This document shows positions 37,210-47,717 of a DNA stretch of 54,834 nt, one piece after another; the stretch's first letter is position 1, and each line of letters opens with the position of its first letter. The notes beneath the pieces are model-generated. The model was not told where the DNA came from. It searched no databases and saw only the letters and a list, made by a program, of their open reading frames with translations. This DNA is from Candidatus Zymogenus saltonus (lineage in GTDB: Bacteria > Desulfobacterota > Zymogenia > Zymogenales > Zymogenaceae). A program made the position numbers and the translations under genes. The stretch spans positions 1-54,834 of the forward strand of contig JAFGIX010000017.1 in NCBI GenBank assembly GCA_016929395.1. The letters are read 5' to 3'.

Positions 37210-40200
37210 TTACGCCCCACCTCCTTTCGCCTTTTCTACGTTGACAAGAAACGCCTTGGTCTCCGGTATCCCCGTGTTCGGATCACCGATTCCCGCCGTT
37301 AACAGGTTTGCCGCATCGCCGAAGGTGAAGACCTCCGGCACCGGCGCATATGAATCGCCGTTCTGACCTTTTTCCGTGGTTCTCCACCCGAAGTGCCAGG
37401 GAATGCCGACCTGATGGAGTTCGTTGCCCTGAACCTTCATCGGCTTGAATCTCTTCGTAACGATCGCCACCGCCGTAAGCTCGCCCCTGGCGGACGATAC
37501 CTTTACAAGGTCTCCGTTTTTGATCCTCTTGAGCTTTGCCAGCTCCTCCGACATCTCCACGAAATTAGAGGGCTGCATCTCCGCGAGCCACGGCTGCCAG
37601 CGCGTCATGACGCCCGTCTGCCAATGCTCCGAAACCCTGTACGTTGTGGCGATTATGGGGTAGTTCGGATCACAGACTTTGGCGTATACATCCTTGTCGG
37701 AGTCGTAGATGTGAACCGTGGGATTCATAAGCTGATCAGGATTTATCAAGTTCTTCTCCACCGGGCACTCCAGCGGCTCGTAGTGGGTCGGGAAAGGACC
37801 CTCCGCCAGGCCGGGGCCGAATATCGATGCAACTCCGTCAGGCTTCATGATGAAGGGGAGCTTTGTTCCCTCCGAATTCATCGGAGGCCATCCGCCGTCC
37901 GGAACGTCCCCCACCCACTTGGTGATAGGGCCGGTCCACCTGATGACCGGTTTTAAGGGCGCCCACGGGTTGCCGTTCAGGTCAACGGATGCGCGGTTGT
38001 AGATGATCCTGCGGTTGACGGGCCAGCACCAGGCCCATTCTGAGTAAAGCCCGATGCCCGATTTGTCGACGCCGTTTCGCCTTGCGGCCATGTTCCCCTT
38101 GACGGTGTACGAGTTGCAGTAGAGCCAATTTCCGCTGGAGGTGGAGCCGTCGTCCTGTAAAAATGCGAAGGACGGGACGAGGTCCCCCTTCTTGAATATG
38201 GTGCCGTCTATTACCTTGTCCTTAAGGAAGTAGCCGTTAATCTCTTTTGCGACTTCGTGGATGTCGACTTCCTTGATCTTGCCGTCGATCCCCTTCTTGC
38301 CGTAATCCCATGTCAGCAGGGTGAAGGCCTCCTTGAGAACGGAGTTGCTTGCCTCCATCTTCTCCTTGATCTTGTAGTAGAGCTCCGTAATGATCTCGCT
38401 GTCGGGAAGCGCTATTCCGGGGGGATTTACCGCCTTGTAGCGCCACTGCATCCAGCGGCCGGAGTTGGTGATGCTTCCCTCCTTCTCAACGGAGCCTGCG
38501 CAGGGAAGCATGAAGACCTCGGTGTTGATTTTAGCGGGGTCCATCCCCGGGCCCTTCCAGAAGGAGCCGGTCTCGTTGTCGAAGATGTTGACGTTGACAA
38601 GCCAGTCCAGCTTGGCAAGCGCGGCACGAACCTTGTTGGAGTCGGCGCCGGAGCAGGCGGGGTTCATACCCCAGGCTAATAGTCCCTTGATATTATCCTT
38701 GTAGATCTGATCCCATATTTCCAGCCACGAGTAGTTGGCGCCGGGATCGAGCTTCGGAAGATAGAGATAGGCCTGTTCCGGGGTGACGTTGAGTCCGTAG
38801 TGGGCCGTCATCAGGCTTGTGATATACTTCGGATAGTTGGTCCACCAGCTTGCGCTAAGCGGGTCATTAGAGGTTACGCTTGCCACCTTTGCCTTCTTGT
38901 AGTCGTCAAGGGTGGGCCAGCCGGTATTCGGCGTTGTCAAATATCCGGGAAGGATGTGAAACAACAGACATTGGTCGGTGGAGCCCTGCACGTTCGACTC
39001 CCCGCGCAGCGCATTCACGCCTCCGCCGGCGATTCCCATGTTGCCCAGGAGGAGCTGGATTATCGCCATGGTCCTGATGTTCTGAACGCCCACGGTATGC
39101 TGGGTCCAGCCCATCGCGTACATGATGGTTCCCGCCTTGTCCTTGACGCCCGTCTCCGAGTAGATCTCGTAGATCTCCTTGAGCTTTTCCACTGGGGTTC
39201 CTGTAATCGAGGATACGGTCTCCATGTCGTAGCGGTCATACTCCTTTTTTAGAAGCTGAAACACGCACATCGGATTGGATAGGGTCTTGTCCCTGACCGG
39301 TACGCCGCGGCCGTCCTTAACGAAGCTCCACGTGGACTTGTCGTACTTGTTTCCGTTGAGTCCTGAAAACACGCCCTTGTTTTCCGCCGGAAGCTTAAAA
39401 TCCGAATTCACGATAAAAGCGGCGTTTGTGTACTCGGAAAGATACTCGACGAAGTGCTTCTTGTTTTCGATGATGTACTTGATCATCCCGCCCAAAAAGG
39501 CGATGTCGGTGCCCGACCTTAACGGCGCATAGTTGTCGGCCTTCGCCGAAGTCCTCGTGAATCTCGGGTCAACGGAAAGGATGGTCGCACCCTTCTCCTT
39601 TGCGCGGGTTACCCACTTGAAGGAGATGGGGTGGTTTTCGGCAGCGTTGCTGCCCATAATTAAGATACAATCACTGTTTCCGATGTCGATCCAGTGATTT
39701 GTCATTGCGCCTCTTCCAAACGACTCTGCCAGAGCCGCTACCGTGGCGCTGTGTCAGATACGAGCCTGATGCTCTATATACACCAGGCCCAATCCCCTAA
39801 GAAATTTTTGGTAAAGGTAACACTCTTCATTGTCCATGGCGGCGCTGCCGATCGAAGCGATCCCGAGGGTGCGGTTCACGGTCTGGCCCGATTCGTTTTT
39901 CTCGGTGAATGTCTTCTCGCGGGTCTTGACCACCCTCTCGGCGATCATGTCGATGGCGTCCTCCCAGGACAGCTCCTTCCACTCCTTTGCCCCGGGCGCG
40001 CGATAAAGGGGCACCTTCAGGCGGGCTTCGTTCACGGCCATCTGGTACAATGCGGAGCCCTTTGAGCAAAGGGAACCTTCATTGATGGGATGATCCGGAT
40101 CGCCCTCGGTGTATACGACCTTACCGTTCCTTACGTGAACGATAATTCCGCAGCCCACCGCGCAATAGGGGCAGATGGTGGTTGTCTCCCGGGCGTACTG

Positions 40201-40311
40201 TATCTTGAGAGGGGTGGCTAATGCTTCAACACCGGAGATGTTGATGCCGAGACCCGTTCCCAAGGCAGTCGCCCCGGAGAGCTTAAGAAAAGTTCTTCTG
40301 GTAACTTCCAT
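37210..40311 (-). CDS. fdhA: Formate dehydrogenase catalytic subunit, selenocysteine-containing, Tat-exported
   Basis: 1033 residues when the in-frame TGA at 39754-39756 is read as selenocysteine 186. The junction reads Glu-His-Gln-Ala-Arg-Ile-Sec-His-Ser-Ala-Thr-Val, the invariant FDH-N/FDH-O active site. The N-terminus is a twin-arginine signal (Thr-Arg-Arg-Thr-Phe-Leu-Lys-Leu). A [4Fe-4S] site (Cys-Pro-Tyr-Cys-Ala-Val-Gly-Cys...Cys-Ser-Lys) follows near residues 45-80, then the bis-MGD domains. The metal may be Mo or W. Ordinary gene calling splits this into two pieces (39754-40311 and 37210-39705). It heads fdhABC-fdhE behind a long structured leader. Confidence 0.95.
39714..39756 (-). 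promoter_or_regulatory. SECIS element and UGA(Sec) codon of fdhA
   Basis: Bacterial SECIS elements lie directly after the UGA. Here the bases after TGA start CACAGCGCCACGG, close to E. coli fdhF (CACGGCCCATCGG), and a G-rich apical region GCGGCTCTGGC falls at the expected 17-20 bases. The loop is a weaker match to GGUCU than the one in the 44.4 kb gene. The call rests mainly on the protein family. Confidence 0.75.
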
Positions 40312-40748: not shown

Positions 40749-42713
40749 CTACAGGCTCAGCTCATCGAGGCCGAGCTCCTTGATCTTGTCCTTGGTCGGT
40801 CCTCCCGTAACGTCGTCCCAGCTCATAACCTCGAACAGCCCCTTTTGGAGCGCGTCCATATCGAGGGTGACGTTCTTGTGGGGGCCCTTTTTCATCGGTG
40901 GATTCCCGAAGCCTCGGCCGTGCATCTTTGTGTCCTTGGCCTTGATTCCCTCCCTGACGTTGAACGCCTTTCTGAGGCTCAATATCCTCTCTCCGATCTT
41001 GAAATACTCGTTCGGGGAGAACTTCCAGCCCGTGGCGGCATTGATGTAATCGATCACAGGGACGGGGCCGGTCAGGGGGCCGAACTCGCAGACTCCGGCG
41101 CCGTTGATTATCTGCATGTAGAACGTTGTGGCAGCATAGAGGTTTACACCCTTCATATCCTTTCCCTTGGCCTCCTTTATCATCCTTTTGGCTTCAGGGA
41201 AGATCTTCTTGACGCCCCAGAGCTGTCCGTAGAGGAAGCTGGAGATGGTGTGGCGGCCCGGTGTGGGCTCGCACTGGTACGCCATGGCGTATCCCTTGTC
41301 GAGGCGCCCGTCGTGCATCGGGAGCTCCTGCCCGCCGGCGTGGACGGCGTACTTGTAGGAATCGCCCCCAATCTCTTCGGAGGCTTTCTTTACGCCGTCG
41401 GCGAGAAGATCTCCGATATTTTTACGCTCTATTATCATCTCGACGAGCTTTTTGATCTCTTCACTCTTCCCCCAGCCGAGCTTCAATCCGCCGGTCATCT
41501 TCTCGTCGATTATTCCGTTCTCGAAGCACTCGATGGCGAAGGCCACCGCCCCGCCCGTCGAGATCGTATCGATCCCGGCGCGGTTGCACATCTCGTTTAT
41601 CTCGACGATCGATTCGAGATCGTCGTTTAGAATCAGGCTCCCGAAGGCGGAGAGGGTCTCGTATTCCGGCTTGTGTCCCTCCGTCCCCTTGAACTTGCCG
41701 AAGTCGATGTCGAATATCCCGCCGCAGCCCAGGGGGCACGCCTGACAGTGATACTTCTTCTTTTCGTACTTGATTACTTCTTCCTCGGAGAGCTTGGAGC
41801 TCTTGGAGTCAAGCGGAAAGTCGGAGTAGCCGACGCCCCCCCAGTTCTTGACGGGGCTGTCCCCCACCTCGGAAGAATAGGCGGTAAGGGCGGAGGTGCC
41901 GTACTTTTTAAACATGAGCCTTACCGTGGAGGGCTGGGTCGGAACATGCAATCCCGTCCTTCCGATGAGCTTTCCGAAGGGCTGAAGGAACTTGACCGAG
42001 ATCTTATCGGGCGGGCCCACCCTCTTGAATTTCTTCATGAATTTTTCCGTGATCTTCTTCATCGCGGCCGGGTCGGCGACAGGAATCTTTCCCGTTCCCT
42101 TTACCGAGAAGGCCTTCAGCTTCTTGGAGCCCATGACCGATCCGAGGCCCGAGCGGGCGGCTATCCTGCCGGAGTCGTTGACGATGCCGGAGATAAGAGA
42201 CACCTTTTCGCCCGCCATCCCGATGGAGGCTATCTGGACCTTTTTGTCGTTTAGATCCTTCTTGATGGCCTCTTCGGTCTCAACCGTGTCCTTTCCCCAG
42301 AGGTGCTTTGCGCTCTTGAACTCCACTCCGTCGTTTGTAAGGTGAACCCATACCGGCTCTTTTGAGCTTCCCGTAAAGAAGACGGCGTCGTAGCCCGCCT
42401 TTTTGATCTCGTGGGAAAAGAAGCCCCCGGAGTTTGCGTCGCCCCAGCCGCCGGTCAAGGGGGATTTCCCCACGACCATGTATCGGCCCGAGAACATCGC
42501 GCCGGTTCCCGTGAGCAACCCGGAGCAAAAGCCGAGATGGGCCTCCGGTGAGAGGGGATCCGTCCCGGGCTTCTGCCTCTGGGTGATCACCGCCGCCCCG
42601 AGTCCGTAGCCCGAGAGATACTTCTTGTAAAAGGCATCTCCCGGCTCGACCGTTTCATATGTCTTCTTGCTCAGGTCGCAAACGAGATACCTTCCTATAT
42701 ATCCACCTGGCAT
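40749..42713 (-). CDS. aor: Tungsten-dependent aldehyde:ferredoxin oxidoreductase
   Basis: 654 residues, a usual AOR length. The [4Fe-4S] ligands are in Cys-Gln-Ala-Cys-Pro-Leu-Gly-Cys near residues 322-329 and Cys-Glu-Phe-Gly near 541. An N-terminal Gly-Ala-Met-Phe-Ser-Gly-Arg-Tyr lies near 70-77, and Glu-Thr-Leu near 350 is in the pterin region. It oxidises aldehydes to acids with ferredoxin, or reduces acids. The ribosome site GGGAGG is strong. The neighbouring formate dehydrogenase shares the need for a tungsto- or molybdopterin cofactor. Confidence 0.94.
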   Translation of the reverse strand: MPGGYIGRYLVCDLSKKTYETVEPGDAFYKKYLSGYGLGAAVITQRQKPGTDPLSPEAHLGFCSGLLTGTGAMFSGRYMVVGKSPLTGGWGDANSGGFFSHEIKKAGYDAVFFTGSSKEPVWVHLTNDGVEFKSAKHLWGKDTVETEEAIKKDLNDKKVQIASIGMAGEKVSLISGIVNDSGRIAARSGLGSVMGSKKLKAFSVKGTGKIPVADPAAMKKITEKFMKKFKRVGPPDKISVKFLQPFGKLIGRTGLHVPTQPSTVRLMFKKYGTSALTAYSSEVGDSPVKNWGGVGYSDFPLDSKSSKLSEEEVIKYEKKKYHCQACPLGCGGIFDIDFGKFKGTEGHKPEYETLSAFGSLILNDDLESIVEINEMCNRAGIDTISTGGAVAFAIECFENGIIDEKMTGGLKLGWGKSEEIKKLVEMIIERKNIGDLLADGVKKASEEIGGDSYKYAVHAGGQELPMHDGRLDKGYAMAYQCEPTPGRHTISSFLYGQLWGVKKIFPEAKRMIKEAKGKDMKGVNLYAATTFYMQIINGAGVCEFGPLTGPVPVIDYINAATGWKFSPNEYFKIGERILSLRKAFNVREGIKAKDTKMHGRGFGNPPMKKGPHKNVTLDMDALQKGLFEVMSWDDVTGGPTKDKIKELGLDELSL

Positions 42714-42978: not shown

Positions 42979-44601
42979 CTACCGCTTCTCCTTAGGGCAT
43001 TTTATTGTCTTCATATCCGTCGAGTAGACGAAATTGTCGTCGTTCTCGATGTCGTGGCACGTGACGCAGTCCTTTTCGGTCGGCGTCTTCTTCATATTAA
43101 CCTTTGTGTCAAGGACGTGGCGGCTTCCGGGGCCGTGACACGCCTCGCACTGGACGCCAATGAGCTCCCCTGCGGTGTAGAGGTTGGTGAATCCCCCCGG
43201 CATTCTGTAACCGGTGGTGTGGCAAGAGAAGCACTCCGGCTCGAACTGTCTTTTATTCTCCCTCAAGGTATCGAACGCACCGGGGTGCCGGGTCTTTTTG
43301 ACGAAATCGGCGATGGAAGGATGACAGGTGCCGCACATTTTGGCCCCAACGTAGTGGGGATCCTGGGCGAGGTCCGTCGGGCTCCTCTTTCCCTTCTTCA
43401 GCATATCTTCCTGAAATTTCCCCTTCTCTTCGATCAATTTATCCTTGTATTCGTTGTCGATCTTCTTTACTTCGGGGTCGTCGGCAAGGTTATCCCCGAG
43501 GCTGACGAGGGAGGCCTTTACGGTATTTTTGTGATCCTTTTTGTTTTCCTTCTCAAGCTCCTTGATCTTCTCTTTTATGTCGTCGAGCTCATCCTTTATG
43601 ATTTTCAGCCCATCATCGACGTTCTTCCCCTCCTCCTTTTTCTTTTTAAAGTCTTTGTACACGTTTTCGAGCTGCTGCCTCCTCATGGTCAGCTTCTGGT
43701 ATTGGAAGTTTGTTATTTCGCTCTTCCCCTCCAAGTAGAGATCGTAGGGCAGGGAAGAATCGTTGATCTGGATGTCGAGACGACCCACGTATTTGCCCCT
43801 GGAGTATATCTGGGAGATAAGGGTGCCGCCGACCTTAATAGGCTGGTAGAGATTTGTCACAGGGTTATGGCCCGTCAATATAAGATCTATCTCGTCGAAC
43901 CTTCCCGCAATCTCTTTTGCCCTCTCGAATCCGGTGGGACAGAGGACTATTATGAAATCCGACTTCCTCTTGAGCTCCTTGATGACCCCCTTCAGGGCGA
44001 CGAACTCGTTGTCGACGTAGATCCCCATCTGTTTCTGTTTTTCGCTGGTGAGTATATCCCTGCCGATAACTGACGTTATCCCCACGTTGAAGCCGGAGAG
44101 CTTGACGACGGTATAGGGAGTGAAGACGGGTTTACCCCCCTCTTTGTTCAAGATGTTTGCGGAAAGGAATGGGAAGTCCGCCATCGATTCGAGCTCCTTT
44201 AGATAATCGACTCCGAAGGAGAGATCGAACTCCCCTATCGACAATGCGGTCCAGTCCATCGCATTGTAGATCTCGATGATATTTTTCCCATGAAGGGAGA
44301 GCCTGTAATCGGGACCCTTGCCGTAATACTTCTGTCTGAAGAGGAGGTTGCCGGCGTCCAGGAGCAGGAGATCGGTTGCCTCTCTCCTTACCTGCTTTAT
44401 GTATGTCGCTTTCCTGGCAAGACCGCCAATCTGGTTTGACCGTCACCCGCAGGGCTCGGTCTCTCCCAGGACGTCGTTGGAGTAGACGATGGTGAAATTG
44501 GCCTCGTGTTTTGTCAACTTTGAGCAGTGGGTTACGCCGAAAAGGGCCAGAAGAATTGCGACGACAACGATAACGTCTTTTCTGATGGCGGCAAGATTCA
44601 T
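42979..44601 (-). CDS. Metallophosphatase/tetraheme cytochrome c lipoprotein, probable selenoprotein (UGA at codon 53)
   Basis: Reading through TGA 44443-44445 gives 540 residues. The start ATG 44601 has AAGGAGG upstream. Residues 1-27 are a lipoprotein signal ending Val-Thr-His-Cys. The metallophosphatase/5'-nucleotidase-like domain begins Ile-Val-Tyr-Ser-Asn-Asp and has Glu-Pro-Cys-Gly-Sec53-Arg-Ser-Asn-Gln-Ile-Gly-Gly-Leu-Ala-Arg-Lys, where relatives have Cys-Gly-Cys. Leu-Asp-Ala-Gly-Asn and Thr-Gly-His-Asn-Pro motifs follow. A coiled coil spans about 300-360. Four CxxCH hemes lie at 423, 457, 485 and 512. The alternative is a nonsense-mutated gene, but 486 codons after the TGA remain intact. 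Confidence 0.8.
44405..44445 (-). promoter_or_regulatory. Putative SECIS hairpin after UGA codon 53
   Basis: On minus, 14 bases after TGA, TGGC-GGTCTT-GCCA forms a 4-bp stem with a GGUCUU loop; CC and GG outside it can pair around a 4-base bulge that contains a U. The GGUCU loop starts 18 bases after the UGA, the spacing I count in E. coli fdhF, whose loop is AGGUCU. Confidence 0.65.
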
Positions 44602-44638
44602 ATAAATATTTATCCTCCTTAAATAGATTATTTTTTAC

Positions 44639-44667
44639 ATAATATAAGACATTATCGGTTCTGTCAA
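44639..44667 (-). promoter_or_regulatory. Promoter of the metallophosphatase/cytochrome gene
   Basis: On minus: TTGACA (44667-44662), exactly 17 bases, TATTAT (44644-44639). An intact promoter and ribosome site argue against a decayed gene. Confidence 0.75.
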
Positions 44668-44750: not shown

Positions 44751-45638
44751 ATGAATATAGACAATGGAGAAAAGGACAAAGGTTCGCCGATTGCCGTCAG
44801 CGTAATAATCCCGACGTACAATCGAATCCGTTCTCTCGAAGATGCGATAAAGAGCGTCCACTCCCAGACGTACGGAGATTTCGAGCTGATCATCGTAGAC
44901 GACGGCTCCACGGACGGGACGGATCGATTAATCGAGAAATCGGCTCCCGATGCGGTCTACATAAGGCAGGAAAACCGGGGGGTGAGCTCCGCGAGAAACC
45001 GTGGAATTTTGGCCTCCCGGGGAAAATACATCGCGTTTCTCGATTCCGACGACAGGTGGCTTGACGAAAAGCTCTCCTTGCAGGTTAAGGCGATGGATGA
45101 GGGGCATCTCGTCTCCCATACCGAGGAGATATGGATAAGAAACGGGGTCAGGGTAAATCCAGGGGCAAGACACAGGAAGCACTCGGGAAACGTCTTTGTA
45201 AAATCGCTCCCCCTGGTAATCATCAGTCTCTCTTCCGTAATTATAAGGAGGGAGGTCTTCGACGACGTGGGCCTCTTCGACGAGAAGCTCCTGGCCGCGG
45301 AAGACTACGACATGTGGCTCAGGATTACGGCGCGCTACCCGGTTCACTTCATTGAAAGGCCCCTGATCGTAAAGACGGGTGGACACAGGGATCAGCTGTC
45401 GCGGAGGTACTGGGGGCTCGACATGCTGAGGATCTACGCCCTCGAGAAGATCCTTCGATCCGGCGTCCTCGACGGGGATGAAAGGCAGGGGGACAGGATC
45501 GCCGTCATGGAGGAGATCGTCAAGAAGGCGAAGATAGTGGGCGGGGGGGCGAAAAAGAGGGGGAACATCGAGGGAGAGATCTATTTCAAGAACAAGGCGA
45601 GGGAATATGAAGAGAAGATCCAATCAAGCCCTAAATAG
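44751..45638 (+). CDS. Family 2 glycosyltransferase
   Basis: 295 residues, GT-A fold. Motifs are Val-Ile-Ile-Pro-Thr-Tyr-Asn-Arg, Val-Asp-Asp-Gly-Ser-Thr-Asp-Gly (near 51), Ala-Arg-Asn-Arg-Gly (near 82), the metal-binding Asp-Ser-Asp-Asp (near 99) and Ala-Glu-Asp-Tyr-Asp-Met-Trp-Leu (near 184), the typical GT2 C-terminal acidic motif. No membrane segment is present. It is the first gene of a plus-strand series, and the next gene starts inside its last 32 bases. The sugar and acceptor are unknown. Confidence 0.9.
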   Translation: MNIDNGEKDKGSPIAVSVIIPTYNRIRSLEDAIKSVHSQTYGDFELIIVDDGSTDGTDRLIEKSAPDAVYIRQENRGVSSARNRGILASRGKYIAFLDSDDRWLDEKLSLQVKAMDEGHLVSHTEEIWIRNGVRVNPGARHRKHSGNVFVKSLPLVIISLSSVIIRREVFDDVGLFDEKLLAAEDYDMWLRITARYPVHFIERPLIVKTGGHRDQLSRRYWGLDMLRIYALEKILRSGVLDGDERQGDRIAVMEEIVKKAKIVGGGAKKRGNIEGEIYFKNKAREYEEKIQSSPK

Positions 45639-46614
45639 TGCGGTGGTTGTAGACGTTTCGATTAAGAAGATTGACCTCGGCGACAGGCGCTACGCCGTTT
45701 CTTTCGACCCGGATTCGCTCGATCAAATGCCTGCCCTTGTCGATTCGATCGCGGCCTTCGGGATCGTAAGCCCGGCGAGGCTCATCAAAGAGGAGGACGG
45801 TCGTTGCGTCCCCGTCTCCGGGTGGAGGAGGCTCTTCGCGGCGGAGAGGCTTGGTCTTGAGACTGTCCCGGCGCTGGTATACGACCGAGGGCTTTCCGAC
45901 GCCGATGCGATGATCCTTGCCCTTATGGACAACTTCCCGGCAAGGGAGTACACGGCTGCCGAGGCCTCGACAATCGTCTCCCGGCTGATCAACGATTTCG
46001 GTTTGGGGGAGGAGGAAGTTCTCGAGGAGTTCTTCGACCTGATTCACCTTCCGAAGTCGAGAAACGTGCTCAGAGACCTCCTTGCAATAAATGACCTCTC
46101 ACGCGAAATAAAGGGGCTCTGCCACGCGAGGCGCTACCCCTTAAAGCCGATTGTGAGCTGGTGCGGGTTTGACGAGGGCGATAGGGGTGCTCTCTTGACG
46201 CTGGTCTCGGCCGCTCCGTTCGGCTCCGGGGTGGTCACGGAGCTTCTGGGCTCTGTCACGGATATCGTGAAGCGGGATCGAATCACGGTCGATGAAATTT
46301 TAGAGGATACCGCGATAAAAAAGGTAATTGCGGACGAGGGTGTGCCGTCGGGCATGAGGGGGGAGAGGATAAGGGAGAGGATTCGCGAAATAAGGTACCC
46401 CATACACTCCGGACTCAACAGGAGATTCGATGACGCCGTGACGAGACTGGGCCTTCCCTGCGGGGCCGGTATATCCCACCCCCCCCACTTCGAGGCGGAT
46501 TACCTCGAGCTTAAGTTTCGCTTCAAAGACAGCCGGGATATAAAGAGGCTGGGGGAGTTCCTGACGTCAGAATCGGAGTCGGAGGAGATTAAAGATCTCC
46601 TCGAAATGGTGTAG
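45607..46614 (+). CDS. ParB/Spo0J N-terminal-like domain protein
   Basis: 335 residues. Residues 17-110 resemble the ParB/Srx CTPase-type domain (Ile-Lys-Lys-Ile-Asp-Leu...Ser-Ile-Ala-Ala-Phe-Gly-Ile-Val-Ser-Pro, Val-Ser-Gly-Trp-Arg-Arg-Leu-Phe-Ala-Ala). A HTH-like helical stretch follows (Tyr-Thr-Ala-Ala-Glu-Ala-Ser...Leu-Pro-Lys-Ser). The C-terminal half is unassigned. There is no parA next to it. The next gene, a spore-photoproduct-lyase-like enzyme, begins 3 bases after the stop, so the two are likely partners. A GTG at 45643 is another possible start. Confidence 0.75.
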   Translation: MKRRSNQALNSAVVVDVSIKKIDLGDRRYAVSFDPDSLDQMPALVDSIAAFGIVSPARLIKEEDGRCVPVSGWRRLFAAERLGLETVPALVYDRGLSDADAMILALMDNFPAREYTAAEASTIVSRLINDFGLGEEEVLEEFFDLIHLPKSRNVLRDLLAINDLSREIKGLCHARRYPLKPIVSWCGFDEGDRGALLTLVSAAPFGSGVVTELLGSVTDIVKRDRITVDEILEDTAIKKVIADEGVPSGMRGERIRERIREIRYPIHSGLNRRFDDAVTRLGLPCGAGISHPPHFEADYLELKFRFKDSRDIKRLGEFLTSESESEEIKDLLEMV

Positions 46615-46616
46615 TC

Positions 46617-47717
46617 TTGTACGGGTTTGAAAATATCTACGTAGAGGAGGGGGCGAGGGGGTTCCCCCTGACGGAGAGGGTATTGGGCCGGCTCGGCAGT
46701 GAGGCTGTGGTCGTCTCCGATTTTCGCGACATCCCCAAGGCGGGGGAGGGGAAAAAGAGCCTCGTCCTCGCACTGCATAAGGGGCGGATCGTCAAGAACT
46801 GCCCCGGTACCGTTAACCACATCTGCTGCGGCTACCACGTGATAAACCAGGTCCTGGGGTGCGACGTAGACTGCACCTACTGCATTTTGAATTGTTACAT
46901 CAACGCCCCGGGCGTCGTTATCAACGTGAACCTCGACGACACGATTTCCGAGCTCGACAGGGTCCTCGATGGTAAAAGGAAATATATCTATCGGGTCGGG
47001 ACTGGGGAGCTGACCGACAGCTTCTACCTCGAAGACCTCACTGGGCTGGCGGCCGGATTCGTCCAATATTTCGCCGATAAAAAAAACGTCCTCTTCGAGC
47101 TCAAGACGAAGAAGACCGATATAGATGGAGTCCTTGACCTTGACCACAGAGGGAGGACGATCATCTCCTGGTCTCTCAACGCCGGTCCCGTGGCCGGGTC
47201 GGAGGAGGCGGGGGCGGCCCCGATCATGGAGAGGCTTAAGGCCGCCGGGCGCGCCCAAAGGAGGGGCTACTACATCGGGTTTCACTTCGACCCGATCGTT
47301 CACTACGACGGCTGGGAGTCCGGGTACGATGAGACGGCCCGGGCGATCTTCGACTTCGTCGATCCCAAAAAGATATTGTGGATAAGCCTCGGCACCTTTC
47401 GCTCGCCGCCCCACCTCTTCGAGATCATCAGGAGACGCCACCCTAAAAGCGCCATAGTCACCGGGGAGTCCTTCCCGGGGGACGACGGCAAGCTGCGATA
47501 CATAAAGCCTTTGAGGGTCGAGATGTACCGGAGGCTCCTGAAATCCCTCAAGAGATACGGCGGGGACGACCTCTTCGTCTACCTCTGCATGGAGAGGAGG
47601 GACGTCTGGGAGAAGGTCTACGGCGGAGCATTTGAGATTCCCAAAAATAGCGGCGATCTGGACAGGATGTTTCACGAAAACCTGAAGAGTAAGTGGATTG
47701 CAGATGGCGAGAGTTAA
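46617..47717 (+). CDS. Spore photoproduct lyase-like radical SAM protein
   Basis: 366 residues from a TTG start. The radical SAM cysteines are Cys82-x3-Cys86-x2-Cys89 (Gly-Cys-Asp-Val-Asp-Cys-Thr-Tyr-Cys), the spacing also found in spore photoproduct lyases, with an extra Cys93. Upstream, Cys62-Pro-Gly-Thr and Cys70-Cys71-Gly-Tyr are further conserved-looking cysteines. His-Phe-Asp-Pro-Ile-Val-His-Tyr near residue 225 is also like SPL. The organism shows no sign of sporulating, so the substrate may be DNA damage or something else. The next gene starts inside its end. Confidence 0.8.
   Translation: MYGFENIYVEEGARGFPLTERVLGRLGSEAVVVSDFRDIPKAGEGKKSLVLALHKGRIVKNCPGTVNHICCGYHVINQVLGCDVDCTYCILNCYINAPGVVINVNLDDTISELDRVLDGKRKYIYRVGTGELTDSFYLEDLTGLAAGFVQYFADKKNVLFELKTKKTDIDGVLDLDHRGRTIISWSLNAGPVAGSEEAGAAPIMERLKAAGRAQRRGYYIGFHFDPIVHYDGWESGYDETARAIFDFVDPKKILWISLGTFRSPPHLFEIIRRRHPKSAIVTGESFPGDDGKLRYIKPLRVEMYRRLLKSLKRYGGDDLFVYLCMERRDVWEKVYGGAFEIPKNSGDLDRMFHENLKSKWIADGES

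Follow-up and report, generated by a model that had tools for sequence, protein, structure and literature searches.

A tetraheme UshA-like protein gene with an in-frame TGA in Candidatus Zymogenus saltonus: selenocysteine decoding and a proposed redox function

Introduction

Does the TGA codon that interrupts a long reading frame on the minus strand of this DNA terminate a gene, or does it encode selenocysteine (Sec), and if so, what might the resulting protein do? The frame lies in a stretch of 54,834 nucleotides from Candidatus Zymogenus saltonus, referred to as a whole as the window. A first-pass annotation, made from the letters of the sequence, had proposed a new selenoprotein in which a metallophosphatase with intact motifs was joined to a tetraheme cytochrome.

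Gene and reading frame

When the frame from 44601 to 42979 was translated, only one stop was encountered ahead of its end, namely the in-frame TGA within PCG-U. The gene coordinates and the position of this single TGA were thus exact in the first-pass annotation, as was its count of four CxxCH motifs, all of which are located downstream of the TGA in the same frame. From the first ATG 3' of the TGA, 426 codons remain, in line with the anticipated loss of the N-terminal 114 residues in standard gene calling. The coordinates of all features are listed in Table 1.

The annotated ribosome binding site and a near-consensus promoter-like site were both found. The promoter-like site is weak evidence, because three such sites were found in the region and 2.2 are expected by chance. 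The lipobox had been described as intact, but the sequence GVTHC carries His at position −1 and is non-canonical. Its Cys is conserved among close relatives, where the corresponding residues read VTYC, VSYC or IICC. On account of the atypical lipobox, the segment is named here only as an export or anchor segment.

Table 1. Features of the UshA-like selenoprotein locus, in window coordinates.
Feature	Position	Strand	Basis or remark
Promoter-like site TTGACA-17-TATTAT	44639..44667	minus	11/12 consensus matches
Ribosome binding site AAGGAGG	44614..44620	minus	read from sequence, just 5' of ATG
UshA-like selenoprotein gene	42979..44601	minus	540 codons, Sec = codon 53, then stop; NF041198, 568 bits vs cutoff 275
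N-terminal hydrophobic export/anchor segment with Cys26, atypical lipobox GVTHC	44524..44601	minus	sequence; helix 8-24 in model; relatives
Metallophosphatase-fold domain, residues 31-394, most metal ligands degenerate	43420..44511	minus	alignment, model, fold match
PCGU motif, residues 50-53	44443..44454	minus	ranks with best-conserved family sites
In-frame TGA, codon 53, read as selenocysteine	44443..44445	minus	54 TGA + 5 Cys, n = 59 family members
SECIS-like hairpin, nt 13-30 after UGA; GGUCUU loop nt 19-24	44413..44430	minus	family comparison
Tetraheme c554-like domain, four CxxCH, residues about 411-530	43012..43371	minus	PF13435, PF14522
Aldehyde:ferredoxin oxidoreductase (AOR)-like gene, downstream	40749..42713	minus	candidate functional partner; pairing repeated in relatives

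Decoding of the TGA codon

The genome from which the window was taken is 99.6% complete. Profile searches detected selA, selB and selD in it, all above curated cutoffs, and a tRNA-Sec with the anticodon TCA (UCA) was also present, which settles the check for selA, selB and selC that the first-pass annotation had suggested. In the alignment of 59 compared family members, the position of residue 53 was occupied by TGA in 54 and by Cys in five, as expected if the codon is read as Sec and relatives carry Cys in its place. Canonical nucleotidases had neither Sec nor Cys at this position, and other nucleotidase-like proteins recovered by the same searches carried unrelated residues. In a quick tree, which contained several long branches and whose inner order is unsafe, the other nucleotidases fell nearly all into one clade, while the Cys forms were scattered among the Sec forms.

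The nearest named relative is a Candidatus Zymogenaceae genome. Against the nearest relative, pN/pS was 0.24 both 5' and 3' of the TGA, and purifying selection is estimated to be of like strength on the two sides. Genetic code table 11 reads TGA as a stop, but genuine termination, an error of sequencing or mutation in a pseudogene is an extremely improbable explanation, since the same TGA occurs at 54 separate loci, selection acts on either side of it, the hairpin that follows it is conserved and the full Sec machinery is encoded in the genome; pseudogene and sequencing error were rejected because of the family-wide TGA and the selection on both sides.

That the TGA of codon 53 specifies Sec and that the protein is a member of the family NF041198 is, as a joint statement, practically certain. 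Judged by comparison across the family, the UGA is decoded in a SelB-dependent manner, with the hairpin just downstream acting as the putative SECIS.

SECIS-like hairpin

The GGUCUU loop of the window gene starts 18 nt past the UGA, and the GGUCU loop of E. coli fdhF is found at equal spacing, a resemblance already pointed out in the first-pass annotation. When 46 bases of this gene were folded alone, the energy was unremarkable (z = −0.77 relative to shuffles). As the energy of the single hairpin was indistinguishable from that of shuffled sequences, family-wide tests based on synonymous codons were used.

Among the 54 Sec genes, GGUCU begins exactly 18 nt past the UGA in 43 and 21 nt past it in four others. 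The loop-forming glycine codon was GGU in 46 of the 54, compared with 9.4 expected from each gene's own usage (p ~3e-27, with relatedness left uncorrected). Measured against synonymous recodings, the Sec genes had the stronger hairpins (mean z of −1.42), which was not so for the five Cys genes (+0.58). One stem pair switches between U-A and G-C through paired synonymous changes, with CTT accompanied by AGG in 10 genes and CTG by CGG in another 10, i.e., in 20 of 23 genes. The significance attributed to the hairpin as SECIS-like comes from this comparison within the family and not from its own folding energy.

Three Chloroflexota members (L068, L077 and L081) have Sec at the same position without the GGUCU loop; other hairpins are present in them, the best of which have loops beginning 25 nt past the UGA. 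An Rfam search of the window gave no match.

Other selenoprotein genes in the genome

The window also contains fdhA (37210-40311), which encodes the alpha subunit of formate dehydrogenase-N (1354 bits) and is followed by genes for the beta and gamma subunits. Its frame is interrupted by a single TGA, situated where one would be expected (U186), as had been annotated. A second UshA-like gene was found in the same genome (G000:C22:37522-38316; L002, L140). It lacks hemes, and its frame contains a single TGA, within a PCV-U motif; its scores are below the cutoffs of both NF041198 and NF049981. One in-frame TGA is likewise present in selD (G000:C1:10871-11806; L157), so SelD of this genome is probably itself a selenoprotein.

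Family membership

The protein matched the NCBIfam family NF041198, "UshA-like (seleno)protein" (UshA_like_PCGU), with 568.4 bits over profile positions 2-519 of 519, and the PCG[U/C] motif that this family is expected to have near the N-terminus is PCGU here. Since the match spans the whole model, membership of the known family extends to the heme part. No defining feature of NF041198 differs in the window protein, which is short of more metal ligands than some other members. The N-terminal stretch of NF049981 (UshA-like (seleno)protein family 2) is related to the window protein, with a score of 63.7 bits, below the cutoff of 140; the published motif of that family is CxxU (PMC13188914), whereas the window protein has CxU. 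The best other curated family was SoxB (TIGR04486; 3e-24), with 85.2 bits against a cutoff of 550.

UshA-like CxU selenoproteins of COG0737 were already included in a study from 2008 (PMC2398784; 76 sequences). UshA-like selenoproteins (COG0737 UshA-like) also appear in PMC9312934, and an UshA-like CxU selenoprotein in PMC13188914. The gene is an ordinary addition to a known, curated and published selenoprotein family, and the description of it as a new selenoprotein does not hold.

Phosphatase-fold domain

An AlphaFold2 model of the window protein was obtained with a mean pLDDT of 84. Its residues 31-394 matched the structures of CD73, UshA and SoxB with Z values of about 32-33 (about 33 for the nucleotidases UshA and CD73, about 32 for SoxB), and the model contains a long helical insert at about residues 294-354. 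The fold is shared with the 5'-nucleotidases, but the window protein has a heme domain where UshA and CD73 keep the C-terminal nucleotidase domain.

The residues of the active site were compared at UshA positions D41, H43, D84, N116, H117, D120, H217, H252 and H254, which we take to be the metal ligands and catalytic residues; the alignment columns were placed by the motifs of canonical nucleotidase sequences. The corresponding residues in the window protein are D43, L45, N85, E124, F125, S128, P222, H245 and V248, so that the two-metal ligands and the catalytic His-Asp dyad of UshA and CD73 are mostly lost from it. Across the 59 family members, N116 was retained in only three and H43 in five, and H117 and D120, which are catalytic, and H254 were not among the common residues, whereas the same positions were retained in 27-44 of 45 other nucleotidases, the range for N116, H43, H117 and D120 being 36-43. 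Cys51, in contrast to these positions, was retained in 54 of the 59.

Some ligands persist, with D or N at positions 41 and 84 and, in about half of the members, H at 217 or 252, so that binding of a single metal is still conceivable for part of the family. As read from the alignment, the catalytic dyad and most of the two-metal ligands are gone family-wide and Cys-X-Sec is the conserved core. The phosphatase-like half thus seems to lack what phosphatase chemistry requires, and the intact phosphatase motifs of the first-pass annotation are refuted.

Heme domain

The multiheme cytochrome profile PF13435 matched the window protein with 52.0 bits against a cutoff of 20.8. The C-terminal four-heme part resembles the cytochrome c554 family covered by this profile, but here it is fused to a phosphatase-fold selenoprotein half. 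The annotated combination of a metallophosphatase fold with a tetraheme domain was thus borne out by the fold match, the profile match and the four CxxCH motifs. Hemes were fused to the UshA-like part in 31 of the 59 family members, the remainder being without hemes. As about half of the members are heme-less and Cys51 is absent in five of 59, both the hemes and the Cys partner are dispensed with in part of the family.

Gene neighbourhood

The AOR-like gene, which lies directly downstream, was also paired with the UshA-like gene in three relatives (G001, G002 and G003). This pairing is restricted to the window's own family, in which AOR is a constant neighbour, and it could be inherited synteny; AOR enzymes are cytoplasmic. 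The window neighbours, a glycosyltransferase and AOR, tell little about function.

A gene for an NrfH/NapC-type multiheme cytochrome adjoins the UshA-like gene in six relatives (L058, L120, L139, L143, L144 and L146), which suggests a link of the tetraheme UshA-like selenoproteins to the quinol pool. This cytochrome, with an NrfH/NapC-like start, has ~740 residues, stands beside tetraheme UshA-like genes and contains 16 CxxCH motifs in the single copy counted. In other relatives, the UshA-like gene adjoins either rhodanese and MauE genes or genes for thioredoxin and DsbD-like proteins, neighbours that point towards chemistry of thiols or sulfane sulfur.

A comparison of neighbourhoods found no single partner common to all family loci. 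A RadA-like neighbour occurred at five loci; since these come from close relatives, the pairing was set aside as likely chance synteny. At window positions 45607-47717 lie a ParB-like gene and, after it, a radical SAM gene resembling that of spore photoproduct lyase, and similar-looking genes in the same order stand beside the G003 copy.

Proposed function and alternatives

We favour, with a probability of roughly 0.55, a reading in which a former nucleotidase fold now serves as a periplasmic redox module, its Cys-Sec pair exchanging electrons with the four hemes. In the exported protein, Cys51-X-Sec53, located in the loop behind what was the first metal-binding motif, would form the new active site. 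Through a selenenylsulfide cycle, the pair may either reduce or oxidise its substrate, conjecturally a disulfide, sulfane sulfur, a peroxide or an oxyanion, and trade electrons with the adjacent hemes, the C-terminal four-heme domain taking the place of the second nucleotidase domain. In several relatives, these hemes would be served by the neighbouring quinol-linked multiheme cytochrome of the NapC/NrfH type.

A SoxB-like sulfur enzyme, in which a thiosulfate or persulfide group would be carried on Sec or Cys while the hemes add or remove electrons, appears unlikely. In its favour, SoxB is the next-best curated family, its fold matches closely, and rhodanese, MauE and thioredoxin genes adjoin some relatives, but the family score is far below the cutoff, and the sulfur-related neighbours occur at heme-less members and one family copy, with none in the window. 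To our knowledge, SoxB contains no heme. Such an enzyme would fall within the redox reading, as the case in which the substrate is a sulfur compound.

A still-active metallophosphatase, with Sec and Cys replacing the lost ligands as a new metal site and the hemes forming a separate domain, is improbable. It would fit the position of the Cys-X-Sec motif after the first metal-binding motif in sequence and the acidic residue or Asn kept at D41/D84 as well as, for about half of the members, a His at 217 or 252, but the positions N116, H117 and D120, required in UshA for phosphoryl transfer, are lost throughout, and Sec is rarely a metal ligand; we know of few cases other than Mo/W or Ni enzymes. 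The first-pass annotation had left two options, a Sec near the binuclear metal site or a Cys-Sec redox pair. Since the phosphatase motifs are lost, the redox pair is the likelier, and Sec acting in a phosphatase with a functional two-metal site the less likely.

A wider version of the Cys-Sec redox reading is conceivable, although we put it forward tentatively: hydrolysis would have been abandoned by the metallophosphatase fold in favour of a Cys-X-Sec oxidoreductase, wired through fused c-type hemes and NapC/NrfH-type partners to the quinone pool, and the protein might be a periplasmic, selenium-dependent respiratory or detoxifying reductase of Desulfobacterota and relatives.

Significance

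As a selenoprotein gene, the locus is routine, and ordinary gene callers would truncate it; its possible importance lies in function. The papers found name the UshA-like family in tables and attribute no function to it. Four features, namely a phosphatase site lost across the family, a conserved Cys-X-Sec, fusion to hemes and a recurring NrfH-like neighbour, add up to a concrete, testable redox hypothesis for this family.
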